20,508 nt of DNA, from positions 1 to 20,508 of IMG/VR virus record IMGVR_UViG_3300036770_001551. One strand, given 5' to 3'. The DNA comes from a virus. Positions 1 through 16,349 of this stretch are shown here, one piece after another. Each line of letters opens with the position of its first letter. The stretch's first letter is position 1. Below the pieces are notes generated by a model. That model was not told the DNA's origin and did no database searches. It saw nothing but the letters and a program-made list of their open reading frames with translations. The translations under genes were made by a program, and so were the position numbers.

Positions 1-3000
1 CTGCGCCTCCCGCTGCGCCGCCTGCAGAGACGCCTGCTAGGCCCCGCACTGCGCAACTTGAAGTACCTAGACTTAGTGGGGTGCCGCCCGATTTCGTCAT
101 GGAAGAAGAGGCGACTGCACCCCCTGCTGCACCCCCTGCTGGTCCGCCACCGGCAGCGCTCGCCGAGGCTGTAGATATCCTGAACCGCATTGACGCTGGA
201 ACTAGCTTTACTGCGGACAAGCTGCGAAGGGTAGCAAAGAACCTGGGGCTGGCTACGCCGGAAAACGCCGGCAGCATCACGCTGCTCAGCCAGATCCGCC
301 AAGCGGTGGCAGATGCACAAACGGCGACTACGCCTCCCGCTGCGCCTCCTGCTCAGCCTCCCGCTGCGCCTCCTGCTCAGCCTCCCGCTGGTCCGCCTGC
401 TGGTCCGCCTGCTGGTCCGCCTGCTGGTCCGTCGGCAACGGATCAAATACTTGAGTCTACTTCGCCAAGTGTGCGTGGCATCGCAGGCAGGGCGCTCGAC
501 GCCATTCGCAACTCCGCTGCATGGTCTTTAACCAAAGACGCGGTAATGCTGACCAGCTACATCGTCGACAATTTGAAGAAAATCGCACCTGCTGTTGGCC
601 GGCACGCGGAACGCCTTATGCGGCTCGACGGACAGCGTAACGGCATCAATGCCAACGAACTGCGCTTGGCTGACGGCATATTGCAGCCGTTCAAAACGCT
701 TTCTGATACCGAGTTCGAGTCGGCGATGAAGTTTATGCGGGAGTCTACGCTGGCAAATGAGTGGGGGTTCCCCCCTGCGCATGACCCCAGTTTGTATGAC
801 CCGCAGAGCCCAACTGCACAGGCGTTCGCGCAGCTTCCTGCGCCGGCGCAGAACGCGATCGAAGCGGCGTTTACGCATCAGTACGAACAAGGGCAAAAGA
901 AGATTTCGTTGGTAGCCGACAACATCAACGAGTTGGAGAAAAACCCAGCACTGCAAAACAAAGAGGGCTGGGAAGAGCAGATTCAGATGCTCAAAGAAAA
1001 CTTGCAGTCGATGCGAGAAGCCTTGTCCGGCCCGTATATCTCGCTGCAGGCTATCGGCAAGTACATCATCGTTGGTAAATCAGAAGAGTACCGAACACTT
1101 GAATCTGCCATCGCGGATAAAGATGTCGAGTCGCTAGGCTTCGATTCAATTGCCGAAGCGAAGCGGGAACTGGAGGCGATGAAGTCTGACGCTGACCACT
1201 TCGCGGTTGCGCCAGCAGACAGTCAGCGTGAAGCTCAGGCGGTCGAGAAAAAGTATCGGGAGCGATTCCAAGACTACACGACGCCAAACTTGTGGCACGA
1301 AAAGAACCAGAGCGTATTCACTTCTCTGGTGCCAATAGAAGCGGTCGCCGCGCTTCGAGAGCGTCTGCTTTCTGAAGGTGCGCGCAACCCTGATGCGCAA
1401 CTGACTTCGCAACTGCTCGCCGCGATCGACGAGTTGTACATTCGGTCGTTGGTTACCAGTGCTAGGAAAGCTGAACTGCGTCGCTACGGTTCGACGGATC
1501 TGACGCCAGACGGCATTTTCCGTGCGATGAGCGCGCAGATGATCGCCGACGCGCACCACATCGCCAACCTGCAGACCAATAAAGACGGCGCAGCGGCAGC
1601 CCAGCAGATGCTGGACGAGGCGCGCAAAGTCGGTGGTGACGTGGAGCGCACCGCAACGGAAATTTACGAGCGGTACCAAAACAGCTACACCTACGAAGCC
1701 AACCCGTTTGCGTCTGGGATTATGAACACCACGGCGCATATGCTTCTGCTTACCAAGCCCGCGTACTATCTGTACAACGCCACGCAGGTTCCGCTTTATG
1801 TTATCCCTAAGCTTATGGAGTATTTCCGAGTAAGGGATGCATGGCCCACTGTCTGGCGAAGCTACAAAAGCATACTTTCCGTTATGCGGGGTAGTGATCC
1901 GCTGTCGTTCAAGACGCTTGATAACGACTTGAACCAACGGACTGCGCTTATCCGGTTCCGCGATGAAGGGCAGTTGACCAACACAATGATGGTCATCGAT
2001 GCTGGCGGGGAGACAGTCGCCAGAGGGCGCGGCGCGAAAGACAAAGCCATGAAAGTGCTTAACGTCTTGCGATCGGCTGCGGCAAACCTCGAATTGTTGA
2101 ACAGAGCGGTGACGTTCCAGTCCGCGTATGAACTTGGCGTCAAGCAGCAGATCTCCAGCGCAGACTTCGCGAACCTCAAGTCGCAGGCTGCTGACACCAA
2201 CCTGACAGACGATCAGAGGAACGCAGCGCGCAGTCAGATAAACGCCATAACCAGTGCAGCCTACGAGAGGGCATTCCGGTTAACGAAAGAAACGCAGATC
2301 GACTATGGCAGCATGGAGCGCCCGTCCCTTATCGGTAAGACGAACGCACGGCGGGTCATTTTCCAGTTCCGCATGTTCCAGCTTGGACAGGCAGCGCTGC
2401 TCATCCGCACCGTCAAAAACTCTGGGCTGTCTACCCCTGAGAAGCGGGCAGCACTGCGCAGTCTGACGTTTTTGCTTGGGCACCACGCCGTTGTCGCTGG
2501 TGCTTGGGGCTTGCCCGCTATGTCGACGATCGCGTTTGTACTGAACGCGGCGCTAAGCGATGATGAGCCCTATGACATGGAATCCAGTCTACGGGAAGTG
2601 TTTGGCACTGGGCCAATGAGTGACTTGCTCATGTATGGGGCTCCTGCAGCGCTGTTTGGCGCGAACGTCTCGCAGAACCTGGGTATGGGGCAGACGTTCA
2701 GCTTGGTGCCGTTTGCGGACCTGACGCCGGATAGAGAGGGCGCAGAAGAATTGGTGCTGAACGGACTAGGCCCATCCGTTGGGCTTTTTTTGCAGGCTGC
2801 TAACGCTGCTGGACGCTTAAAGAACGACGACTACTATGGGTTTATAGCTGGCATGATGCCGGGCGGTATTAAGACTGCGCTTCAGGCGTTCCAAGAATCT
2901 AGCGAAGGCGTACTGAATGCGCGGGGCGATACGCTGATATCGCCGGAAGAAGTCACGACAGGGGACTCCATTCTGCGGTCGCTGGGTTTCACGACGCAGC

Positions 3001-3356
3001 GTGACTACGTTCGTCGGTTGGTTCGCTCGAAAACGGTTGCGTTTGAAACGCATTTCGACTCACGCACTTCGCAACTCAAAAATCGGTACGTCCGAGCCTT
3101 TGAGGCGAAGGACCGCGAAGAGATGAAAGCACTGCGAGACGAGTGGCGTGAATTACAGGACATCAAAGTAGACTATGGATTCCGCCGTCAACCTCTGACA
3201 AACTTGTTAAAAGAGCCGCAAGAGAAACGAAAACGTGAGCGCGAAACTGCAGGTGGCGTGCAGTACGATTCCGCCACGAGGCGGTTGGTGCTTGAATCTC
3301 TTGGCGAGCGGGCCGGGTACGCACGGGGTGGGTTGATACCACCAAGCATGCGATAG
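1..3356 (+). CDS. C-terminal part of a giant phage virion (ejection-type) protein, 5' truncated
   Basis: The frame is open to the left edge of the window. A GTG at 81 is possible, but the same Pro/Ala-rich reading continues upstream of it from base 3 without a stop, so the gene almost certainly begins outside the window. Numbering from that GTG, Pro-rich linkers lie near residues 12-25 and 85-118 and flank a small helical segment. The middle is charged and helical. Hydrophobic stretches lie near 545-580 and 795-830, with a shorter one near 850-865. The C-terminus is a basic helical region (QPLTNLLKEP) followed by a tail with ARGGLIPPS. Very large multi-helical proteins with such C-termini (the PLxRFG-type group) occur among late podovirus genes and are thought to be internal virion proteins ejected with the DNA. 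That role is inferred; no enzymatic motif was recognised. It sits directly upstream of the lysis genes. Confidence 0.7.
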   Translation, partial: APPAAPPAETPARPRTAQLEVPRLSGVPPDFVMEEEATAPPAAPPAGPPPAALAEAVDILNRIDAGTSFTADKLRRVAKNLGLATPENAGSITLLSQIRQAVADAQTATTPPAAPPAQPPAAPPAQPPAGPPAGPPAGPPAGPSATDQILESTSPSVRGIAGRALDAIRNSAAWSLTKDAVMLTSYIVDNLKKIAPAVGRHAERLMRLDGQRNGINANELRLADGILQPFKTLSDTEFESAMKFMRESTLANEWGFPPAHDPSLYDPQSPTAQAFAQLPAPAQNAIEAAFTHQYEQGQKKISLVADNINELEKNPALQNKEGWEEQIQMLKENLQSMREALSGPYISLQAIGKYIIVGKSEEYRTLESAIADKDVESLGFDSIAEAKRELEAMKSDADHFAVAPADSQREAQAVEKKYRERFQDYTTPNLWHEKNQSVFTSLVPIEAVAALRERLLSEGARNPDAQLTSQLLAAIDELYIRSLVTSARKAELRRYGSTDLTPDGIFRAMSAQMIADAHHIANLQTNKDGAAAAQQMLDEARKVGGDVERTATEIYERYQNSYTYEANPFASGIMNTTAHMLLLTKPAYYLYNATQVPLYVIPKLMEYFRVRDAWPTVWRSYKSILSVMRGSDPLSFKTLDNDLNQRTALIRFRDEGQLTNTMMVIDAGGETVARGRGAKDKAMKVLNVLRSAAANLELLNRAVTFQSAYELGVKQQISSADFANLKSQAADTNLTDDQRNAARSQINAITSAAYERAFRLTKETQIDYGSMERPSLIGKTNARRVIFQFRMFQLGQAALLIRTVKNSGLSTPEKRAALRSLTFLLGHHAVVAGAWGLPAMSTIAFVLNAALSDDEPYDMESSLREVFGTGPMSDLLMYGAPAALFGANVSQNLGMGQTFSLVPFADLTPDREGAEELVLNGLGPSVGLFLQAANAAGRLKNDDYYGFIAGMMPGGIKTALQAFQESSEGVLNARGDTLISPEEVTTGDSILRSLGFTTQRDYVRRLVRSKTVAFETHFDSRTSQLKNRYVRAFEAKDREEMKALRDEWRELQDIKVDYGFRRQPLTNLLKEPQEKRKRERETAGGVQYDSATRRLVLESLGERAGYARGGLIPPSMR
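333..431 (+). repeat. Tandem repeat encoding Pro/Ala/Gly-rich linker
   Basis: Two exact 24-base copies (333-356 and 357-380) encode PPAAPPAQ. They are followed by a part copy and then three exact 12-base copies (396-407, 408-419, 420-431) encoding PAGP-type units. Related Pro-rich coding occurs at 1-26 and around 118-150. The repeat is in frame and probably forms a flexible linker in the virion protein. Copy number is likely to vary between relatives by slippage. Confidence 0.9.
2768..2791 (+). terminator. Terminator-like hairpin plus T7 inside the virion gene
   Basis: Bases 2770-2774 (GCCCA) pair with 2780-2784 (TGGGC) across a 5-base loop. One or two more weak pairs can form outside, and seven T follow at 2785-2791. 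The layout is that of a weak intrinsic terminator on the sense strand. It encodes an ordinary GPSVGLFLQ stretch, so it may be chance. The core stem is only 5 base pairs. Confidence 0.3.
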
Positions 3357-3375: not shown

Positions 3376-3564
3376 ATGAGCGTAGAAGTAGATCCGAAAG
3401 ACTGGTGGAAAAGCCGTACGGTTATCGCGAACCTCGCGGCCATCATTGTTGTAGGCATGACCGCTGCTGGGTTCGATGTCGAAGTCGGTGTAGTCGAAGT
3501 CGTCATCATAACTGTGATGAACATTGGACTTCGGTTTGCCACTAAAGCGCCTGTAAAGCTGTGA
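3376..3564 (+). CDS. Holin-like small membrane protein
   Basis: The protein has 62 residues. It begins with a short charged segment containing Trp-Trp, then a hydrophobic segment at about 18-33, a short acidic turn and a second hydrophobic segment at about 38-54, and ends in a basic tail. Two short membrane segments in a protein this small, beside spanin-like genes, fit a phage holin, which would form lesions in the inner membrane to start lysis. A strong Shine-Dalgarno (GAAAGGAG) lies just upstream of the ATG. The stop overlaps the GTG start of the next gene, suggesting translational coupling. The assignment rests on topology and context; it could be another small phage membrane protein. No endolysin gene is seen nearby. 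Confidence 0.6.
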   Translation: MSVEVDPKDWWKSRTVIANLAAIIVVGMTAAGFDVEVGVVEVVIITVMNIGLRFATKAPVKL

Positions 3565-3773
3565 ACTGGGCTCCGGTAGTATTTCTAGTGCTATCGGCGT
3601 TCGTTTTGTTCGCAGTGTGGGTACTGGCGCGAGCTTCGGCTCGTTCTGATACTGCGCTGGATGCCGTGCGTCGAGAGCAAGACGAACGAAAAGAAGCCGA
3701 CAAGATACGTCGTGATTTGGAGCGTGAGCCTGATCCTGTGGAGAAGCTGCGCGACAAGTGGTCGAGAGATTGA
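3561..3773 (+). CDS. Candidate inner-membrane spanin (Rz-like)
   Basis: The protein has 70 residues and a GTG start that overlaps the stop of the holin-like gene. One N-terminal membrane segment covers about residues 4-24. It is followed by a highly charged helical, probably coiled-coil, region ending in a KLRDKWSRD-type tail. The arrangement of one anchor plus a periplasmic coiled coil is that of Rz-type spanin subunits, which fuse inner and outer membranes at the end of Gram-negative lysis. The partner would be the lipoprotein encoded at 4032. The role is inferred from topology and position, and the protein is shorter than classical Rz. Confidence 0.5.
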   Translation: MNWAPVVFLVLSAFVLFAVWVLARASARSDTALDAVRREQDERKEADKIRRDLEREPDPVEKLRDKWSRD

Positions 3774-3799
3774 CTTTGAATTGTTAGGAGAAAGGCATC

Positions 3800-4021
3800 A
3801 TGCCGAATGGTCCGTCCGTTAAAAACATCCGTAAGCCGAAAGCCTCTGTCCAACCGAAGTCCACTGGTGGCGCAACTATGGCTATGCGCGGTAGTCGCTC
3901 AAAAATGGGAAGCGCAAAACCCGAGTCGATGATGGATGAAATGCCTGCGGTTAAGACTAAAAGCGGCAAGAAGAACGCCACCAAAACTGGTCGTAAGTTC
4001 CCTATGGGAATGAAGAAGTAG
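3800..4021 (+). CDS. Small, very basic hypothetical protein
   Basis: The protein has 73 residues, rich in Lys, Arg, Ser, Met and Gly, with almost no hydrophobic core and no recognised domain. It has a good ribosome binding site (AGGAGAAAGG) before the ATG. It is probably disordered and may bind nucleic acid or be a minor virion component, but nothing in the sequence settles this. It lies between the two spanin-like genes, an odd place for an unrelated protein. Confidence 0.65.
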   Translation: MPNGPSVKNIRKPKASVQPKSTGGATMAMRGSRSKMGSAKPESMMDEMPAVKTKSGKKNATKTGRKFPMGMKK

Positions 4022-4031
4022 GCAACGGCGT

Positions 4032-4223
4032 ATGAAGCAGCGTGTAGCACTGGTCGGACTGCTGGGGCTCCTTCTGAGCGCTTGCGCGACGGGGGGACGC
4101 GAGACTGACTTTTGCATAATTGCGCAGCCAGTTCTCGTGTCCAAGACAGATACGCTGACGGAAGAGACGGCGCGGCAGATCTTAGCTCACAATGAAGTGG
4201 GCCGGGCGTTGTGCGGTTGGTGA
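4032..4223 (+). CDS. Rz1-like lipoprotein (candidate outer-membrane spanin)
   Basis: The protein has 63 residues. A short basic N-terminus and a hydrophobic stretch end in a lipobox (LLSAC, Cys at residue 18), so the mature protein should be lipidated. The rest carries a pattern frequent in small phage lipoproteins of lysis cassettes: F-C-x-I-x-x-P, a Ser/Asp/Thr-rich turn, TARQILAHN and a terminal LCGW. The two mature Cys may pair. As a lipoprotein downstream of a coiled-coil membrane protein, it is a good candidate for the outer-membrane spanin subunit. The ribosome binding site is weak, so translation may depend on the gene just upstream. Confidence 0.6.
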   Translation: MKQRVALVGLLGLLLSACATGGRETDFCIIAQPVLVSKTDTLTEETARQILAHNEVGRALCGW

Positions 4224-4249
4224 TCGATACAGTAACTTTGGAGTGACTC

Positions 4250-4507
4250 ATGGGTAAGCAGACTAACTACAGCCCGACATTTCCCATGTTTCCGGGCGGT
4301 GCTGCCACGTTTTCAAATAGCGATACCGTTAACCTCCCCACGCCGTCCGTGATCTATGTCGGAAGCGGCGGTAACGTGAAAGTCACCACTGCTCAAGGCG
4401 ATGACGTGACGTTTGTTGGCGTGCTGTCCGGCTCCGTTGTGCCCGTACAGGTAATCCGTGTTTGGTCAACGGGCACGTCTGCGACTAACCTGCTGCGGAT
4501 CTACTAG
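4250..4507 (+). CDS. Spike base protein, RCAP_Rcc01079-like
   Basis: The protein has 85 residues. The body reads as a small beta-rich domain with the family-like pattern LP-x-x-S-x-x-IYVG-x-GG, then VTT-x-x-GDDVTF, then VVPV-x-VIRV and GT-x-A-T. This pattern is that of the small spike-base proteins named after Rhodobacter capsulatus gene transfer agent gene rcc01079, which help hold head spikes or fibres. It has a clear Shine-Dalgarno (GGAG). It ends two bases before the start of the large repeat protein, which makes that protein the likely spike or fibre attached to it. The family call was made by eye from the motif order. Confidence 0.65.
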   Translation: MGKQTNYSPTFPMFPGGAATFSNSDTVNLPTPSVIYVGSGGNVKVTTAQGDDVTFVGVLSGSVVPVQVIRVWSTGTSATNLLRIY

Positions 4508-4509
4508 CC

Positions 4510-6489
4510 ATGTCTTTCGGCTTCGCTTTCTCGCTTCCCGCCTACGGCACTTGGGGCTCGTCGGAGGTTTCTCCGATAGAACTGTTCGCCAATGGCGAGC
4601 AGGGTTTGTGGTACGACCCCACCGACATCACGACGCTTTATCAGGATGCTTCGGGGACAACGCCGGTCACCGCTGCTGGGCAGCGCGTTGGGCGCATCTT
4701 AGACCGCAGCGGAAATAACAATTACGCCAGCCAAGGCACCGTATCATTTCAGCCGTTTTATCAGGTCGGCCCAGCCCGCCTGACCATTGACCGCGTAGAC
4801 GACCGTTTGGTTGTGACCGTGCCTGTCGGCGGCTTTGTTGGGACCATGATCCTCTCGACCCCAGAGGGCACCGCAGCATACGGCGTCAACATCCCAGCAG
4901 GTTCATACGACATCGGCGGGCAAGGCGGCACACGTTTCCCCGGCTCGGCCATCACAGGCCAACTGATCCGAGACGGCGCACTGACGGATTCCCAGATCGC
5001 GCAGACCATCAACTGGATGCGAGCGCGGGGCGGCGGACTAAATTATGGATCAGTTAGCAGTTTCTCCGGTTATTGGCGAGATCAGACGCGAATCACTACG
5101 TTTCCGTTAGTAGACACGTCAGGCGGCACAAATTTCGCGAATGCGTGGCGCACTTGCAGTAGTCTAAGCTCTTTTCCGTTGCTCAATGTGTCAAATGGCA
5201 CGTCTTTTCAAGGCGCTTGGCTAGGATGCTCTAGCCTAACGTCGTTTCCGTTGTTAGATTTATCAAGCGCGACAAACTTTGAATCGGCATGGTCTGGATG
5301 CATAAATCTAACTTCGCTACCGTTGCTCAATGTGTCAAACGGAACAAATTTTGCTGTTTCTTGGGACAATTGCTTTTCACTGACTGCATTTCCTCAACTC
5401 GATGTTTCAGCCGGAACAACTTTTGCTTTTTCGTGGCGCACTTGCAGTAGTCTAAGCTCTTTTCCGTTGCTCAATGTGTCAAATGGCACGACCTTTCAGA
5501 GCGCATGGCAAAACTGCACCGGCCTCACGTCGTTTCCTGCGCTGGATATGAGCAGCGGCACCAACTTCACATCCACATGGCAAGGCTGCACCGGCCTAAC
5601 ATCGTTTCCTGCCGGCATTGATATATCAAGCGGAACAAACTTTTCAAACACATGGAACGGATGCACCGGCCTCACGTCGTTTCCGTTGCTGGACACGTCA
5701 AGCGGCACCAGCTTTGGTGGCGCGTGGGCAAACTGCACCGGATTGACGTCGTTTCCTTTGTTGGACACGTCAAGCAGCACAACTTTTGTATATACATGGC
5801 TCGGCTGCGTTAGTCTTACAAGTTTCCCGTTGCTAGACACGTCAAGCTGCACCAACTTTTTGGGTACATGGAATGATTGTTCTTCTTTGACTAGTTTTCC
5901 GCTTATTGACACAAGCAGCGGCACAAATTTTAATTCTTCTTGGTATGAGTGTGAAAACCTTATTAACTTCCCGTTGATAGATACTAGCGCAGGCACAAGT
6001 TTTGTTGCGACATGGATGAGATGCCGCGATCTTACCAGCATCCCTGCTCTTGATCTTAGCAGCGGAACAAATTTTCAACAGGCTTTTCAGGAATGCGAAA
6101 ACATTACAAGTTTTGGCCCGTTGGACATGAGCAGCGGGACAAATTTTGCCAACACTTGGCGGCGATGCTATGACCTGACTAGTTTTCCCGCCGTCAATTT
6201 CAGCAGCGGCACAACCTTTGCTGGAGCATGGCAAGAATGCACCAGCCTAGCCACATTTCCGGCCAATATGTTTGACACCGTGACGGCCACCAATTTCACA
6301 AACGCATTTCTGAACACCAACCTGAGCCAGACCAGCATCGACAACATCCTAGTCAGCATCGAGACGGCTGGCACCAGCAACGGGACGTTTAATCAGTCGG
6401 GCGGTAGTGCGCCGTCAGCGACCGGCGAGGCCGCGATTGATGCACTGCGGGCGAGGGGCTGGACTGTCGTGGTGACCGGAGGGTACTAA
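4510..6489 (+). CDS. Leucine-rich-repeat (BspA/DUF285-like) tail fibre or spike protein
   Basis: The protein has 659 residues in three parts. Residues about 20-100 match a conserved N-terminal segment of phage fibres (GLWYDPTDITTLYQDASG, then DRSGN), probably the virion attachment part. Residues about 195-604 are sixteen repeats of about 24 residues plus a degenerate seventeenth, with the pattern LTSFP-x-LD-x-SSGT-x-F-x-x-x-W-x-x-C. This is a shifted reading of the BspA-type/DUF285 leucine-rich repeat. The C-terminal 50 residues (SIDNIL, GGSAPSATGEAAIDALRARGW) form a cap often seen after such repeats in phage proteins. BspA-type repeats mediate surface binding, so a receptor-binding role is likely but inferred. 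No catalytic motif is seen. It follows the spike-base gene by two bases. Confidence 0.75.
   Translation: MSFGFAFSLPAYGTWGSSEVSPIELFANGEQGLWYDPTDITTLYQDASGTTPVTAAGQRVGRILDRSGNNNYASQGTVSFQPFYQVGPARLTIDRVDDRLVVTVPVGGFVGTMILSTPEGTAAYGVNIPAGSYDIGGQGGTRFPGSAITGQLIRDGALTDSQIAQTINWMRARGGGLNYGSVSSFSGYWRDQTRITTFPLVDTSGGTNFANAWRTCSSLSSFPLLNVSNGTSFQGAWLGCSSLTSFPLLDLSSATNFESAWSGCINLTSLPLLNVSNGTNFAVSWDNCFSLTAFPQLDVSAGTTFAFSWRTCSSLSSFPLLNVSNGTTFQSAWQNCTGLTSFPALDMSSGTNFTSTWQGCTGLTSFPAGIDISSGTNFSNTWNGCTGLTSFPLLDTSSGTSFGGAWANCTGLTSFPLLDTSSSTTFVYTWLGCVSLTSFPLLDTSSCTNFLGTWNDCSSLTSFPLIDTSSGTNFNSSWYECENLINFPLIDTSAGTSFVATWMRCRDLTSIPALDLSSGTNFQQAFQECENITSFGPLDMSSGTNFANTWRRCYDLTSFPAVNFSSGTTFAGAWQECTSLATFPANMFDTVTATNFTNAFLNTNLSQTSIDNILVSIETAGTSNGTFNQSGGSAPSATGEAAIDALRARGWTVVVTGGY
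5092..6321 (+). repeat. 72-base in-frame tandem repeat (LRR array)
   Basis: Sixteen units of 24 codons run in tandem (unit 8 has 25), followed by a degenerate unit at 6247-6321. Each unit encodes a Leu/Ile start, FP at positions 4-5, Ser/Gly/Thr in the middle, an aromatic residue (Trp in nearly all) at about 19 and Cys at about 22. Most units have diverged at DNA level, which points to an old array under protein-level selection, except the near-identical pair described separately. Confidence 0.9.
5144..5490 (+). repeat. Exact 59-base direct repeat pair inside the LRR array
   Basis: Bases 5144-5202 are repeated exactly at 5432-5490, 288 bases apart, which is exactly four 72-base units. The copies span the end of repeat 1 and most of repeat 2, and the end of repeat 5 and most of repeat 6. 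Other units differ at many silent sites, so this identity points to a recent four-unit duplication or a gene conversion. Confidence 0.9.
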
Positions 6490-6491
6490 TC

Positions 6492-6866
6492 ATGCTCAGT
6501 TGCGTACTCATCCTCCCTATCGATCAGGTCGAGACCGGCAACGCGGTCGGCGTCGCAATGGGCTGGGGTCCAAACAATTTCTCGGTCCCGCTGTCTGCCG
6601 ATGGCTATCTGCCAGCCACGCACTACGGCCTGCATTCGTGGGTTGAGCCGTGGTTTAAGGATCTCATCGAGAGCGGCGAATACCCACCGCAGTTGGCCGA
6701 ATCAGACATTACCGAGCAGCAGTATCAGGACATGCTGGCCGTGCTGGTCTACTCATTCTGGGATGACTATGTCGGGCACTGGGATGCCGTGCTTGCCGAA
6801 CAGGGATTGGAGATCGCGGACGAAGAGCCTGAGCCGGAACCGGAACCTGAGCCAGAGCTAAATTGA
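6492..6866 (+). CDS. Hypothetical protein with acidic Glu-Pro tail
   Basis: The protein has 124 residues and starts two bases after the stop of the fibre gene. The N-terminal half is hydrophobic to mixed (ILPIDQVETGNAV, then GWGPNNFSVPLS). The middle has several Trp and Tyr. The C-terminus is a run of alternating Glu-Pro. I do not recognise the family. Its position directly after a receptor-binding protein is where fibre assembly chaperones or secondary fibre proteins often lie, but the sequence gives no direct support. It is the last gene of the rightward block. Confidence 0.65.
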   Translation: MLSCVLILPIDQVETGNAVGVAMGWGPNNFSVPLSADGYLPATHYGLHSWVEPWFKDLIESGEYPPQLAESDITEQQYQDMLAVLVYSFWDDYVGHWDAVLAEQGLEIADEEPEPEPEPEPELN

Positions 6867-6870
6867 AGCG

Positions 6871-6898
6871 AAAAAAAGCCCCGGTGACTAGCCGGGGC
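6871..6898 (-). terminator. Intrinsic terminator for the leftward operon
   Basis: On the - strand, GCCCCGG and CCGGGGC (6892-6898 and 6878-6884) form a perfect 7-base-pair GC stem with a 7-base loop. Seven T follow (6871-6877 read on -). It lies about 45 bases past the last leftward gene, in the convergent gap. The same hairpin read rightward lacks a T tract, so it should act mainly on leftward transcripts. Confidence 0.8.
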
Positions 6899-7114: not shown

Positions 7115-10009
7115 TCAAGGTTCCACCGCAGCACGCTGCACGGCTCCAGCTAACGCTTTCTGGATAGCCTCGCTCTCGTCCTCAGAGCACCGGAACAACA
7201 GGCAGTCCGTAGGCGGTGCTACCAGCCCGGTGTCCGAGAGCAGGCGCTTCTTCTTAGGTCCCAGGTATCGGAACGGCGCGGAAGCGCTCTTGCACTCCTC
7301 CAGTGCCGTAGCCATCGTAAACTGCCGATCCACGCAGTAGTCCCTGAACGCCTTCTTGGCTATGTACATCATCGACGGCGTGCCAACCTCAAGCCGTGCA
7401 ACGACTCGACTGTTGCGAGGCTCGTGGAATACCGCAGACGCCGTAAACGGGTTCATCTCGTTCAGGTTCACGCCGACGATGCCGTTGTGGTTCTCCAGCA
7501 GGAAGTCACCCAGCAGCGAGTTCGAGTCGTGGGTTTCGTCCTTGATGACGTCCCTGTTGCCCAGCAGCTTCTTGATCGCCCACTGCTGCAGGTTCTCGAT
7601 GTCTAAATCATGCAACCCAAGAGACTGTGAAATGCGTCCAGCGACTAGCACGATCGCGATGACTGCGACGATGAATCGCTCCTCCATGCGCTTGCCGGCC
7701 TGCTGCCAGATGATATCCCGCTGCTTGTCGATCAGACGCTGCAGTCGATCTTTGTTCTTCACCAGCCACTGCGCGTACACGGGTCCGGCGACGCCGTAGT
7801 TGTCCATCATCCGCGCAAAGATCTTGTCGCCGTCTGGGATCTCTACCCGGTCGACCTCCAGTTCGATCATTCGCATGAGTTCGCCGTCAGCCCTAGCCTT
7901 CATTTTGGCTAGCTTGCTGACCATCGAGGCGTTGCTGTTCGAGACGTTGATCAGCGACCAGTAGGTGTTGTTCGACCGCAGGCGGTTGGTCTGCCCCTCC
8001 ATGCGGTCCTTGCCCTTGCCGTGCGTCGTCGCGTAGACCATGTCGGACACGTCTTCCGGGCGCAGGTTGGTCATCTCGTCAGACCCGGCGCACAGGTTGT
8101 TCAGCACGCCAAACTTGTGATCTCTGGCGTTCACGGTGTCCTTGGAGTTTATCAACGTCTCCCGAGGGTGGCCGAACACACTCATCGCGATCTGCGTAGC
8201 CGTCGTCTTACCCGTGCCCGACTCGTTGCTCAGCAGGTTAACCGTAACCCCAGCGATGCCGCTGAACGGAACCAGCGGAGATCCAAAGCCGCATAGCGCG
8301 GCGAACTGCAGCGGCTCCATGCCGGGTCGAGCCAAAGCGTTGATGACAGTCTTCCATTCTGTCAGTGAGCCGACAGGCTCGAACAGGTGGATGACTTCTG
8401 AGGTCGCGCTCGATGCTGGGTTGTGCAGGATCTTATTCGCCGTATACACCCGGTTGCCGACTACGAAACCGTCGCGCCGTGGTGTCCAACCAAACTGAAG
8501 CCGTGCTTCACGCGCTTTGCCACGCATCTGAAGATCTTTTGTGTAGCGTATTGCGTACGACATTATCAACTCCATCTGCTTCTTGCTGCCAGCGATGCCC
8601 TGTTTGCCGGCGGTTGTCTTGAACTTATCAGGAGAATGAATATCTGCCAATGGTATGGAAAATTCACGTTCACCGTCATGCGGTAGTATCAACTTGAACA
8701 CGACCACTTCGCCTGCCTGCGGATCGTTGAGGCGTTGTGTGGCGTAGAAGTCGTGCTCGTACACCAACTCTTCGCTCTTCTCGCCGTCCGCGTCCTCTCC
8801 CTGCTTGTAAACGCCACCGTGCTTGCCTCGAAAGTACGGGAACGGCGGCGAATAGTTGACGTTGGGTGGAGGGTTCAGCACCTCTGGCTTTTCAACTGTT
8901 TCGGCGGTCAGTTCGACTTCCGCGATCACGTCGATCTGCTCCGGGTCGACCTCCTGCACCTCGGCGCGCGCTATGGCCCGGCCCAGCACGATCGGGCTTT
9001 TGACATTGTGCGGGCAGCCTTCGCATAGCTCCGGTGCTTTGGTTCTGAATGTGGCGCAGGTGTGCGGGTATTCTGCACCAGACGCCTTGCGCTCTGTCTC
9101 GTTGTAGTCGTACTCCGGGTGCTTGCACGACATCTTGTGGATCGCGGTATCCCGGTCCTCGCAGTGCTGGGCGATGGACAGTGCGCTGTACCAGAGCGGT
9201 TCCGGCACGTTCTCCTGATCGAGCAGCACATGCTTGATCGCGTTGCATCCGGTGCCAGCCAAGCTCGACTTCGCGATGATCGAGAAGCGGGATATCTGAT
9301 TGCCCAGCAGCCCTTGCATGATGGGGCTGATAGGGGCCGCAGGGCGCTCGACTGGGCGCTTCTCGACAGGCGGGGCTACCTTCGTGCGCTGGAGCGCTTC
9401 AGCGAACTCCTGCAGCGTGATAGCGGTGCCGAACCGTAGGACATCGACATCGCGTGGAGCATCGAGATCCTTGAAATTGTGCGTGCCCGGTATGCGTAGC
9501 ACGCGCGCTGCGTCGTACAACGGCGTACCTGGGTCGTAGCCGAAGTCAAAGTGCTGCGCCACTGCCATGAAGTGCTTGGCGACTGGCATCCAGTCCTCAA
9601 CCTCGACTGCTTCTGCCAGCACCCAGTAAACGTGCAGGCCGTAGCCGCTCGACACAAGCGTCGGGTAGGGTATGCCCACCTGCGAGCAGAACTCGCCCAG
9701 TGCGGCGCGTGCGTCGTCCAGCGTGGAGTACTTTTTGTTGTCACCCCAGTCCAGATCCATGAAGAACGTCTTGATCCACCCGGCGTTGTCTGCCGTGCGG
9801 CGCTTCACATCACTGAATGTTGCTATTGAAAAGTAAGCTTCTTTCTTCTGCGAAACATACGAACGGACAACTCTAGGTATTTCGCGAACTTCATTTAGGA
9901 ATATATGAGTGGGTCTGTTTTCTTTTACCTTCCCACCTTCCAAGAAAAACACGCAGTACCTGCCGTAATGCGGCAGTACACTGCGTAGAAAGGTATCTAC
10001 GCGATTCAT
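7115..10009 (-). CDS. Primase-helicase: archaeo-eukaryotic primase fused to DUF927-like helicase
   Basis: The protein has 964 residues from the ATG at 10009. The N-terminal domain has archaeo-eukaryotic primase motifs: FFMDLDW with metal-binding Asp85 and Asp87, SGYGLH at 121-126, and RIPGTHN at 172-178. A Cys-rich segment near 310-335 (CATF, then CEGCPHN) may bind zinc. The C-terminal half has a P-loop (SNESGTGKTT, Lys601) and a Walker B-like segment (NLCAGSDEMT, near 640), as in DUF927-like helicases. It should prime and unwind DNA at the replication fork. The longest frame starts 36 bases earlier at 10045, but that ATG lies in the loop of an intrinsic terminator hairpin, and the 12 extra residues are encoded by the terminator. 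The first part of the gene (about 9790-9960) is visibly richer in A+T than the rest. It is the largest gene of the operon. Confidence 0.85.
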   Translation of the reverse strand: MNRVDTFLRSVLPHYGRYCVFFLEGGKVKENRPTHIFLNEVREIPRVVRSYVSQKKEAYFSIATFSDVKRRTADNAGWIKTFFMDLDWGDNKKYSTLDDARAALGEFCSQVGIPYPTLVSSGYGLHVYWVLAEAVEVEDWMPVAKHFMAVAQHFDFGYDPGTPLYDAARVLRIPGTHNFKDLDAPRDVDVLRFGTAITLQEFAEALQRTKVAPPVEKRPVERPAAPISPIMQGLLGNQISRFSIIAKSSLAGTGCNAIKHVLLDQENVPEPLWYSALSIAQHCEDRDTAIHKMSCKHPEYDYNETERKASGAEYPHTCATFRTKAPELCEGCPHNVKSPIVLGRAIARAEVQEVDPEQIDVIAEVELTAETVEKPEVLNPPPNVNYSPPFPYFRGKHGGVYKQGEDADGEKSEELVYEHDFYATQRLNDPQAGEVVVFKLILPHDGEREFSIPLADIHSPDKFKTTAGKQGIAGSKKQMELIMSYAIRYTKDLQMRGKAREARLQFGWTPRRDGFVVGNRVYTANKILHNPASSATSEVIHLFEPVGSLTEWKTVINALARPGMEPLQFAALCGFGSPLVPFSGIAGVTVNLLSNESGTGKTTATQIAMSVFGHPRETLINSKDTVNARDHKFGVLNNLCAGSDEMTNLRPEDVSDMVYATTHGKGKDRMEGQTNRLRSNNTYWSLINVSNSNASMVSKLAKMKARADGELMRMIELEVDRVEIPDGDKIFARMMDNYGVAGPVYAQWLVKNKDRLQRLIDKQRDIIWQQAGKRMEERFIVAVIAIVLVAGRISQSLGLHDLDIENLQQWAIKKLLGNRDVIKDETHDSNSLLGDFLLENHNGIVGVNLNEMNPFTASAVFHEPRNSRVVARLEVGTPSMMYIAKKAFRDYCVDRQFTMATALEECKSASAPFRYLGPKKKRLLSDTGLVAPPTDCLLFRCSEDESEAIQKALAGAVQRAAVEP

Positions 10010-10030
10010 GCTGCGCCCCCGAGGGTAAAA

Positions 10031-10053
10031 GGGCGAGGTTGTCATCCTCGCCC
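10031..10053 (-). terminator. Intrinsic terminator or attenuator before the primase-helicase gene
   Basis: On the - strand, GGGCGAGG and CCTCGCCC form a perfect 8-base-pair stem (10046-10053 with 10031-10038) around a 7-base loop, followed at once by TTTT (10027-10030). It lies between the candidate SSB gene and the primase-helicase gene. Incomplete termination here would give more SSB than primase. Confidence 0.65.
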
Positions 10054-13768: not shown

Positions 13769-14433
13769 TTCGCGCCTCCACCGTTGTACTCGCACGTCGT
13801 GACTGGGCACCACTGCTTGCATAGTCCATTCTGTTTCGCCGGCCAACTGTCGTGCTCATCCGCCGCCGCCAGTAGGTCTGCATCGGCGCACCACTTTGCC
13901 CAGATAGCCGGTGCGTCCTCCACGTTGTACACGCTCTTCACCAGCACCTTGGCCGCAGTGAACAACAACGCACCGCGCACGACCTTCACGCTCGGAAAGT
14001 GCGCGAACGTCATTATCGCCATCAGTTCTAGCTGGCGTTTGTCCGGGTACTTGGCGCTGCCAGTCTTGTAGTCCACGCACCAAGCGAGTTTATCGTTAAC
14101 GACCAGCAGGTCTGCAACGCCACGGTACAGTGCGCTCTTGTCGAAGAACTTGACGGGCTGCATGTCGCGCGTGACGCCCATCTTGTACTCGCAGAGCTTG
14201 GCACCGGGCAGCGCTTTGAGTCGATCCAGCGCCGGTTGTAGCTTGCTGAGATCCTCCGGCAACGGCTCGTCGTACCCGACGTACCGCTCTGCTTTCTCGT
14301 GGACATAGTTCCCGTACAGGATCTGCTCTGACTGGGTGAACGGGATCAGGTTGAGCACCTTCTCGACGTGGTGCTTCCGGGGGCAGGTGTGGAACGACTT
14401 GATCGAACTGAACGACGTGGGCAGAACAGCCAT
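13738..14433 (-). CDS. PD-(D/E)XK nuclease, Cas4/RecB-like, possible Fe-S protein
   Basis: The protein has 231 residues. Motifs in order are SSIKSFHTCPRKH (Cys17), GNYVHEKAE (His45), GVADLLV (Asp108), VDYKTG (Asp121, Lys123) and Gln134. These match the RecB/Cas4 nuclease family active site (His, Asp, Asp-x-Lys, Gln). Three Cys near the C-terminus (205, 209, 214) together with Cys17 could hold a 4Fe-4S cluster as in Cas4 and AddB, although the spacing (C-x3-C-x4-C) differs from the usual C-x2-C-x5-C. Such phage proteins probably process DNA ends during recombination or degrade DNA. The start codon overlaps the polymerase stop by one base (TAATG). No CRISPR or helicase partner of the AddA type is present. 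Confidence 0.85.
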   Translation of the reverse strand: MAVLPTSFSSIKSFHTCPRKHHVEKVLNLIPFTQSEQILYGNYVHEKAERYVGYDEPLPEDLSKLQPALDRLKALPGAKLCEYKMGVTRDMQPVKFFDKSALYRGVADLLVVNDKLAWCVDYKTGSAKYPDKRQLELMAIMTFAHFPSVKVVRGALLFTAAKVLVKSVYNVEDAPAIWAKWCADADLLAAADEHDSWPAKQNGLCKQWCPVTTCEYNGGGAKCSTTLTTKQ

Positions 14434-16349
14434 TATTTCGCATCCCCGTAAGTGTCCGCGATGTCGCCTTTGCCCCAGGTTATCAACTCAGGGAACCACG
14501 AGACGCCTGCGCGCATCACGTCCAACATGTAGTCCAACGCCTCCTGCGCATGCTCCTCTGGCTCGACCAGAACGATCTCGTCGTGGACTGTATGCACGAC
14601 CGCGTAGCGCTTCTGCACAGTGAGGATCATATCTGCCATGACTTCGCGCGCGAGGTGCTGGACGCAGTTCTCCACCACCTTCGGCCCGGAGATGAACGTC
14701 TTCTTCGACCCGGTGCCGTACACCCAGCGCTTGCCGCCGCGTATCTCATCCGGCTCAGTGCGAAGGTCCGGGTAGTGTATGAACCCCTGCGGCGTCTTGA
14801 TGCCACCCTTCGCCGTGACGCACAACCCCCACGGGTCGAGTTTAACACCCCCCTTGCCTTGCGCGATCAACTTCAGGCACTCACCTGCTCGCGACCAACC
14901 GCGCACAATGGAAGCATAGCGAGCGCGCCAAACCGTCACGGTGTCCTTGCTCTCAGTTTCCGAAAGCTCGACGCCACCCATGATCCTAGCAATGTTACGA
15001 AATGTTACATGCCCAGCACCGAACTGAAGACCCAACTGGGCGACCTTGCCCAACTGGCGCTCCTTCGACGTAATGTCACCCGGTGTTTTCTTGAAAAGCT
15101 TCGCCGCGAAGTCACGGTACAGGTCCGCTTCGCCGGGATCTTCGTCGTACAGCGCCATGCTGGCCTTCACCTTCCACAGGTAATGGCTCATGCGCAACTC
15201 GATGCCAGACAAGTCCGCAACGACGACCTTGCTACCAGTCGGCGCACGCAGGCAGCGACGCAGCGCATCCGACAACTTGGGCCTCGATGGATCGACGCGC
15301 GCGAGGTTCTGCTGGTTGAGACCCATCGCCCCGCTCCAACGCCCGGTGTTGTCGGCCCCGTAGTAGTTCAGCGCGATCGGCATCGTGCCGCCCGTCGCAG
15401 CGGCCACCTCGAGGAAGTTCTGTATCCGGGTGCCAAGCATGGTGCTCTTGACGCCCAGTCTCGCGGCTGCCAGCGCCGCAACGTCCGGGTTCTCGTGCTC
15501 GACCAGCGACTGCATGCCCTCATCGGTCTTGGACAGGGCGGGGATCATCTTCTCTGGGTTGGCAGGGGAGGGCTTCATCGGCACCTCGACACCTTTCATC
15601 TTCAACAGGTTGCTGAAGTTCGCCGAACTCGCCAGCATCTTGCGCGCCTGCTCAATCGCCGCCTCGTCATCCTGCTCCGCGAACGGATAGATGTCGGTGC
15701 CGATCTCCAGCAACACCTTACGCTGCGCGGCAGCCAGCGCGTCCGCCGTGTTACGCAGCAGGTCCACATCCACTTCAAACGCCGGGCGCACCAGCATCTG
15801 GACGGTGGCATGGATCAGGCGCAGCGAGCGAGGGTCTACCAGCGGCAGCAGTTTCTTGAACAGTGCAAAGCAGATGTCGGTGTCGCGCTGGTTGTACGCT
15901 GTCATCGCCTCGCGCTCTGACTCAGTGAAGTCGGCGAGCCGCTTGCCCTTGGTGTTGGTCGCCTCAAGGTCGAGCTTGGAGCCCAACGAGAAGTGTTCAG
16001 CCAGTGCTTTGAGACTGCCACCTGCAGTCTTCGCAAGCCCAGCCTGCCGGGCCATCGCCAGCGTGCAGCCCCAGAGTTTAGGCGCAACACCCAGCCGCCA
16101 CGCCAGCAGCATCGAGTCGAACCCACTCATGTTGTGCCCGACGACGATACTCGTATCGACCGGCAGTGCTTCCAACGCCCAGCGCACGTTGCGCTCGCCG
16201 AAAAAGACTTCTGTGGGGCCGTCGTTGAACTTGATCGCAGCCGACTGGATCTCGGTGTCCGGGTGCAGGCAGTACACGATAGGATTCATAACCGACAGAC
16301 TATGCGTCTGCGACCAGTACGTCTCCAGATCAACCGTGATGATGTTCAA
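14433..16349 (-). CDS. polA: DNA polymerase, family A, with 3'-5' exonuclease domain
   Basis: The protein has 638 residues. The proofreading domain shows Exo I DLE (Asp7, Glu9), Exo II GHNMSGFD (Asp78) and Exo III YNQRD (Tyr152, Asp156). The polymerase domain shows motif A VVADLSGIELR (Asp379), motif B RQLGKVAQLGLQFG and motif C VHDE (Asp590). There is no 5'-3' exonuclease domain, as usual for phage replicative PolA. Aligning motif B with E. coli Pol I 754-767 puts Leu439 at the Phe762 position and Phe443 at the Tyr766 position. It should copy the phage genome with the primase-helicase. The start overlaps the VRR-NUC stop (ATGA), and the stop overlaps the Cas4-like start. Confidence 0.95.
   Translation of the reverse strand: MNIITVDLETYWSQTHSLSVMNPIVYCLHPDTEIQSAAIKFNDGPTEVFFGERNVRWALEALPVDTSIVVGHNMSGFDSMLLAWRLGVAPKLWGCTLAMARQAGLAKTAGGSLKALAEHFSLGSKLDLEATNTKGKRLADFTESEREAMTAYNQRDTDICFALFKKLLPLVDPRSLRLIHATVQMLVRPAFEVDVDLLRNTADALAAAQRKVLLEIGTDIYPFAEQDDEAAIEQARKMLASSANFSNLLKMKGVEVPMKPSPANPEKMIPALSKTDEGMQSLVEHENPDVAALAAARLGVKSTMLGTRIQNFLEVAAATGGTMPIALNYYGADNTGRWSGAMGLNQQNLARVDPSRPKLSDALRRCLRAPTGSKVVVADLSGIELRMSHYLWKVKASMALYDEDPGEADLYRDFAAKLFKKTPGDITSKERQLGKVAQLGLQFGAGHVTFRNIARIMGGVELSETESKDTVTVWRARYASIVRGWSRAGECLKLIAQGKGGVKLDPWGLCVTAKGGIKTPQGFIHYPDLRTEPDEIRGGKRWVYGTGSKKTFISGPKVVENCVQHLAREVMADMILTVQKRYAVVHTVHDEIVLVEPEEHAQEALDYMLDVMRAGVSWFPELITWGKGDIADTYGDAK

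Follow-up and report, generated by a model that had tools for sequence, protein, structure and literature searches.

How a phage might mount a leucine-rich repeat (LRR) fibre on its particle, and whether such a fibre would stand on the head or on the tail, are questions raised by two adjacent genes in the viral DNA analysed here. The window, by which we mean the whole stretch of DNA under analysis, is an entire IMG/VR virus record of 20,508 bases and is probably a genome fragment. Its plus strand carries a gene for an 85-aa spike base of the RCAP_Rcc01079 family (4250..4507, ATG 4250 to TAG 4507), followed by a gene for a 659-aa fibre (4510..6489, ATG 4510 to TAA 6489). The fibre ATG lies two bases after the TAG of the base gene, as given in the initial annotation. 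We consider it likely that the pair encodes a head spike of the type known from the gene transfer agent RcGTA, with a plugged LRR fibre that would most likely be the first part to contact the host.

The pair lies between lysis genes and replication genes, and the fragment contains no capsid gene. Rightward genes upstream encode a PLxRFG/DarB-like protein (81-3356) and, at 3376-4223, a weakly holin-like product and spanin-like ones, while a primase (7115-10045) and a polymerase (14433-16349) are encoded leftward. A terminator-like hairpin with a T-run (6878..6898, minus strand) separates the rightward genes from the leftward replication genes; the consensus scan that detected it returned 7 sites compared to a mean of 4.3 in shuffles. 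Behind the fibre gene is a gene for a 124-aa protein of unknown function (6492..6866, plus strand), the membership of which in the base and fibre module is uncertain; a 39% identical stretch is also present downstream of a base and LRR fibre in another locus, L135. Within the pair itself G+C is 0.46–0.52 in windows covering the repeat array and 0.54–0.60 in the other parts. The best named relatives of the polymerase are those of Pseudomonas phages Rollin, phiR18 and KPP25 and the Rhizobium RHph_TM phages (30–33% identity), and when the primase was used to look for phages closely related to that of the window, it led to two distant ones (L173 and L174). In L173 no base was detected by tblastn at 1e-3, and a 2,877-aa ORF occupies the side on which the window carries the base and fibre pair.

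The Rcc01079-like character of the base, claimed in the initial annotation, is borne out by profile searches. With the NCBIfam model NF048002 ('spike base protein, RCAP_Rcc01079 family'; curated cut-off 28) it reaches 62 bits, and a profile built from 28 relatives finds the PDB chains 8cjz ('Spike Base Protein', 8.1e-10) and 6tb9 ('Head spike base Rcc01079', 2e-9). A GGAG seen by eye at 4240..4243 (plus strand) is a candidate ribosome-binding site of this gene. Base genes for comparison were gathered almost entirely by base sequence, the exceptions being L135 and L149, which were found through the LRR search; this gave 134 hits, of which 133 had downstream sequence and 107 remained after dereplication. 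Eight relatives of 60–66 kb each gave a single base match. The capsid genes of the window phage lie outside the fragment, and a second copy of the base is therefore possible.

The characterised member of the family suggests how the two proteins could fit together. According to the available text of PMC7296036, the RcGTA head spike consists of a base pentamer on a capsid pentamer together with one fibre, and the base is anchored at the vertex by its N-terminal arm. Only residues 2–10 of the fibre (IALGLGLGL) are resolved there, forming a five-point star in hydrophobic pockets of the five bases. The counterpart in the window is a putative docking peptide or plug, MSFGFAFSLP (4510..4539, plus strand), in which hydrophobic and small residues alternate and which is conserved in relatives. 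Its first nine residues, MSFGFAFSL, satisfy a strict plug pattern, for which we required that close to the N-terminus four hydrophobic residues take turns with small ones. A fifth hydrophobic position depends on retention of M1, and removal of M1 would leave four hydrophobic residues, compared to five in RcGTA. The plug region has a pLDDT below 50 in the fibre model described below.

By analogy with RcGTA, we infer that a capsid vertex of the window phage would bear the small base in five copies, fastened by their N-terminal arms. The proposed capsid-binding arm, TNYSPTFPMFPG (4262..4297, plus strand), is near-invariant in 17 close relatives. One fibre would be inserted per base pentamer, probably through its first ten or so residues, the side chains of F3, F5, F7 and L9 (and possibly M1) entering pockets of the five base subunits.

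The plug is a frequent, though not universal, feature of the gene after the base. Admitting starts from 25 bases before to 30 after the base stop, the strict pattern was found in the next ORF after 64 of the 133 base genes, with 63 next ORFs lacking it and six loci having no adjacent ORF; the corresponding counts for the 107 dereplicated loci are 49, 52 and six. One of the 49, a small AMKQ-type protein in L062, was removed to give a set of 48. A count that sets adjacent ORFs against the others gave the strict pattern in 63 of 127 ORFs directly behind a base. Elsewhere in the same loci it is present in 25 non-adjacent ORFs (6,206 ORFs of at least 60 aa in all), and six of these 25, in L013, L014, L015, L109, L136 and L140, themselves look like fibres. 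A looser pattern occurs in 67 of 101 next genes in 102 viral loci, compared to 137 of 4,063 other ORFs. In 24 loci of bacterial genomes, to which only the base had led, it occurs in 10 of 22 next genes compared to 20 of 1,009 other ORFs, although two of the ten (L123 and L129) look like chance and a Fisher value is a guide only, since ORFs are not independent. L055 and L057, whose contigs end in or at the base, were left out of the counts with the looser pattern.

Some of the 63 next ORFs without the strict pattern resemble variant plugs (starts like MSFGTAFALP or MAFGAGFGFP). In 18 loci, including L062, which passes the strict pattern, the gene after the base encodes an AMKQ-type protein of 43–68 aa, and in L040–L043 it has an unrelated N-terminus; some bases therefore precede another kind of gene. 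Among seven isolates the plug is clear in RcapNL and P8625, doubtful in Elemovirus and MW202828, and not found in RcMcLean, Cr30 and RHph_Y25. The expectation that the pair would recur in other phages was thus only partly confirmed: a base followed by a plug fibre recurs in many loci but not in all, and a base followed by an LRR fibre was seen in the window, L135 and L149.

Behind the plug, similarity between fibres falls away sharply. Mean pairwise ungapped identity among 47 dereplicated plug fibres of at least 60 aa (1,081 pairs; one shorter fibre was left out) is 56% over residues 2–10, 16% over residues 13–24 and 10% over residues 31–60, while mean DNA identity in the 48 plug fibres drops from 0.63 over the first 30 nt to 0.33 and next to 0.29. 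The distal parts are not all unrelated. When 44 fibres are stripped of their first 25 residues they form five groups by any blastp hit, or 13 if a hit has to span at least half the length of the longer protein. In three of five near-relative pairs compared, DNA similarity ends 32–53 nt into the fibre gene. The bases of L003 and L009 are 99% identical, and their DNA is approximately 96% identical through the base gene and on to nt 32 of the fibre gene; beyond this point the fibres (274 and 414 aa) have no blastp match, and 88–97% similarity is found downstream in pieces. The corresponding end points are 53 nt in L022/L023 and 41 nt in L014/L015. Not every seam lies at the plug: in L034/L036 and L035/L037 similarity extends 242 and 108 nt into the fibre gene, respectively. 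Tandem fibres in L013 and L015 are related over much of their length. We conclude that related phages keep the plug and swap what stands behind it. The plug would divide a fixed part (capsid and base) from a variable part (fibre body), of which the window carries an LRR version.

It is conceivable that the conserved start is instead a feature of the DNA or RNA at the gene junction, such as a recombination or translation signal, and this would fit with the position of the tagged ORF, which begins between 14 bases before and 9 after the base stop in the 48 dereplicated loci (among the starts from 25 bases before to 30 after that were admitted), as well as with break points that in some pairs lie just behind the conserved start. 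However, the residue pattern holds while the underlying 30 nt are so modestly conserved, the alternation of hydrophobic and small residues is preserved whether the former are F, L, I or V, and in L014, which has two adjacent fibres, the second has the same start without lying beside the base, the sole blastp match between the two being residues 1–16. Together with the RcGTA structure, in which the peptide is seen bound (available text of PMC7296036), these observations make such a signal a very improbable explanation. Recent recombination was likewise rejected as the cause of the conserved tag in the set as a whole, given the 0.63 identity, and was retained for the three near-relative pairs L003/L009, L022/L023 and L014/L015.

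The initial annotation had described a phage-fibre N-terminus, and an EQG-WYDPSD module is indeed present at about residues 22–79 (4573..4746; plus strand, as for all parts of the fibre gene) and is common to other phage proteins, but it is not a shared feature of fibres adjacent to a base. This module was considered as the base-docking element and rejected, as base-adjacent fibres share the plug and not the module, and as the module occurs without the plug and without a detected base in L143, where no base was found in the record by single-sequence search or in the locus by profile. In L143 the module and the LRR body sit on a different N-terminus, and the LRR body therefore moves between mountings. 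Between module and repeats the model places a small beta-rich domain (about residues 90–176; 4777..5037), which was also aligned in L143, L146, L148, L135, L141, L137 and L154.

The remainder of the fibre is a repeat array (5074..6297) and a C-terminal cap (6298..6486; NLSQTSIDNILVSI...TVTGGY in part) that has relatives in viral loci. The array has a self-identity of 0.505 at a lag of 24 residues, whereas 200 shuffles averaged 0.086 and reached 0.117 at most, and a repeat pattern of the LTSFPLLDTSSGTNF kind recovers 16 units of 24 residues compared to none in 200 shuffles. An AlphaFold model from the single sequence (pLDDT 58) gave mixed hits, none in the PDB at E 0.001, and was replaced by an AF2 model built from 12 aligned sequences (pLDDT 76.6, pTM 0.66), in which the cap reaches pLDDT 90–97 by blocks of ten. 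All 21 Foldseek hits of this model to the PDB at E 1e-3 or better are LRR ectodomains (best E 6.5e-6), although TM-scores are only 0.13–0.24 with high rmsd over the whole array; VIA-align gave Z 23.3 to 4u08 and Z 19.8 to 4fs7 (rmsd 3.4 over 364 residues). With regard to a right-handed beta-helix body, the listed matches of the better model are LRR proteins and those of the poorer one are mixed, with none at E 0.001, and the structure searches leave some room for folds other than LRR.

The leucine-rich repeats of the initial annotation are supported as a predicted fold, and its 'BspA-type' label fits that fold, but the fibre had no match to Pfam LRR_5 (PF13306) above the gathering score and no hit to DUF285 (PF03382) at E 1; a further search for the latter also gave none, with control genomes silent too. 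We regard the body as LRR by its modelled fold and not as a proven member of LRR_5 or DUF285. Nor is an LRR body as unusual a choice for a phage as had been suggested, as the cassette is present in 34 viral loci and LRR names are given to many phage proteins in BFVD, the top hits among its viral models including several named BspA-like, LRR or 26-residue-repeat.

These 34 loci (two from one contig) were found with the last 100 aa of the fibre, and 33 were examined, L155 being left out as it shares a contig with L154. Nine of them break off without reaching the gene start, and a base lies directly upstream in two of the other 24, detected by profile in L135 (2e-13) and L149 (8e-7). The LRR fibres of L135, L136 and L140 begin with a strict plug, while that of L149 starts MVNAIIIGNCIAVGAG and has no strict plug. 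The occurrence of the cassette on many N-termini in many phages would fit with a vertex fibre whose LRR body has no specific target or adheres to mucus, to particles or to other virions, and the head fibres of phage 7-7-1 are reported in phage-to-phage contacts (available text of PMC12796354). We consider it unlikely that the body serves such ends rather than binding the host, because the head-spike fibre of RcGTA binds capsule (PMC10218006, in its available part) and because bodies are swapped between near relatives, as expected of parts that determine host range. The LRR solenoid behind its short module would then most likely provide a first, reversible contact with the host surface, although receptor contact by this body is something we infer. 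The initial annotation is thus supported in the base family, the LRR-type body and the coupling of the two genes, and the adsorption role it proposed is plausible by analogy with RcGTA head spikes, which bind capsule (PMC10218006, PMC7296036), but docking is assigned to residues 1–10 and not to the EQG-WYDPSD module.

Whether the spike stands on the head is best judged from relatives that retain their structural genes. In a 63 kb relative (L169–L172) three or four genes stand between the portal gene and that for the major capsid protein (PF25209, 1.1e-13), which is followed by an endonuclease gene, a gene for 175 aa, the base and the tagged fibre. Of 73 viral loci in which roughly 3 kb precede the base (shorter ones were left out), 65 have the same capsid protein upstream (78–100% identical to that of L169 4940-5851), at a median distance, measured to an approximate base start, of 738 bases; these 65 loci share ancestry and are therefore not independent. 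An SPTFP arm is present in the base of all 65 and in none of the eight loci without the capsid gene, six of which have distant bases. It takes the form TN[YPF]SPTFP in 63 of the 65, the other two being TQYSPTFP and THPSPTFP. Two bases in loci without the capsid gene, L044 and L048, are approximately 70% identical to that of the window over the matched part, on a quite different N-terminal part without SPTFP, and still adjoin plug fibres (MAFGFGFAVP and MAFGFGFGFP). This pattern is consistent with a base whose arm serves the capsid and whose socket receives the fibre, and the N-terminal arm of the base would hold the capsid as in RcGTA.

As the base follows a capsid gene in most loci and the SPTFP arm tracks that gene, the window pair is probably a head spike. 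The alternative is that base and fibre belong to the tail, the plug working alike on a tail structure. PHROG 12296, which the base matches at 2.8e-13, is named 'tail fiber protein', a name that some records also give to the base; the base of P8625 lies among tail genes, that of RcapNL is close to a gene annotated as baseplate hub and tail lysozyme, and the window pair is not beside capsid genes. Against this stand the capsid gene before the base, the distribution of the SPTFP arm and the identity of the family's characterised member as a capsid-vertex spike (available text of PMC7296036), and we regard a tail location as distinctly unlikely. On the gene order of relatives and on homology a head spike is more likely than a tail fibre. 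The window base has a TNYSPTFP arm, and the window phage is therefore predicted to have a capsid of the L169 type.

More tentatively, and at somewhat less than even chances, we propose that a peptide of approximately ten residues is a general plug for interchangeable vertex fibres, used in at least two bacterial phyla by phages as well as by gene transfer agents. The base would be a two-way adaptor with a constant socket and an arm that varies with the capsid, whole fibre bodies would be exchanged at the seam that follows the plug, and phages with two tagged fibres (L013, L014 and L015) would build virions with mixed vertices. The titles and opening parts of abstracts that made up the literature searched did not describe the plug outside RcGTA, or its use by phages as a general connector. 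A peptide interaction solved in one gene transfer agent appears to be a widespread connector between fixed capsids and exchangeable host-contact fibres. The simple signature of a base gene followed by a start such as MSFGFGFGFP can serve to find head fibres that at present bear hypothetical or tail-protein labels, and a short peptide and the purified base, itself small, make it possible to test the exchange of head fibres.

Among known systems the repeat body has its own set of relatives. The predicted solenoid resembles 4fs7 of Bacteroides ovatus, which we take to be a BspA-like bacterial LRR surface protein, and differs from BspA-like proteins in its 24-residue unit of the type CxxLTSFPLLDTSSGTNFxxxW as well as in the Pfam results. 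The same repeat type occurs in LRR proteins of Synechococcus phages S-CBWM1 and S-SKS1 and Nonlabens phage P12024S, which are 43–44% identical over 49–73% of the fibre. These alignments start at residue 171 or later, and the N-termini therefore differ or lie outside the alignment.

For the pair as a whole the closest counterpart is the Rcc01079 base and Rcc01080 fibre of RcGTA (PDB 6tb9, 6tba; available text of PMC7296036), with which it shares the base family, the neighbouring genes and a fibre N-terminus of alternating hydrophobic and small residues. It differs from RcGTA in a plug that is dominated by Phe and not Leu, with four clear positions (plus M1) compared to five, in a fibre body that is an LRR array, and in the swapping of bodies among relatives with the window's kind of base. 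In phages, a similar pairing is found in Rhodobacter phage RcapNL (gp29–gp30) and Verrucomicrobia phage P8625 (gp23–gp24), where the base is directly followed by genes starting MGLGLGIGLGL and MIGLGLDLSL, respectively, although the RcapNL fibre has only 144 aa and the P8625 protein, of 584 aa, is concanavalin-like in its record. Phages 7-7-1, phiCb13 and phiCbK offer a comparison of a different kind. In the available text of PMC12796354 no Rcc01079-type base is seen for them, and the 7-7-1 vertex has a linker protein 2, the Ig-type domain of which is hypothesised to reach into the fibre density. The proposed spike would resemble theirs in that these phages carry one fibre per capsid vertex and use it in early contact with the host.

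Within the window, the LRR array of the fibre contains two similar stretches of 227 nt each (window 5095–5321 and 5383–5609), which are 73% identical at an offset of 288 nt (four units) and include one long identical run, probably reflecting a fairly recent duplication inside the array. Among the related loci gathered by base or LRR searches, L013 (1644–3497), L014 (6260–8918) and L015 (6260–8111) each carry two fibre genes in tandem behind one base. Both tandem fibres start with MALGFGLALTSYRK. Between the two L014 bodies, blastp detected no match past residue 16; it is possible that these tandem genes provide mixed or alternative vertex fibres.

At 18 loci (L010, L011, L027, L061–L066, L068–L072 and L075–L078) the gene immediately following the base encodes a protein of 43–68 aa with a DDHGLTDAEIEAMKQARYDKW-like stretch, the L011 copy being incomplete as it ends at the contig end. 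Tagged proteins of 73–101 aa with the N-terminus MLIGINLKL lie behind the bases of L049–L054, and a 67-aa tagged protein starting MGLSLGNGLAFLGFG is encoded at L137 (1356–1559), where the profile search detected no base and the next gene encodes a 917-aa LRR protein. These very short tagged proteins may act as adaptors for a further fibre. The gene next to the base in L119 (about 4213–4340) has a signal-peptide-like beginning, with IGVGVGVGVG only after it; either a leader that is cleaved off precedes the plug, or the start of the gene was misassigned.

The bases of L044 (about 6001–6231) and L048 (about 5464–5691) have a core close to that of the window's base and a different N-terminal part, and neither locus has the clade's capsid gene upstream; here the base domain seems to have been grafted onto another anchor.

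Two further window ORFs lie near the base–fibre pair. A basic 73-aa ORF rich in lysine and methionine (window 3800–4021), between two spanin-like genes, had no convincing family match. Downstream of the fibre gene, window 6492–6866 encodes a protein of 124 aa that carries an EPEPEP tail; a stretch 39% identical to it occurs in L135 (5706–6008), likewise downstream of a base and LRR fibre.
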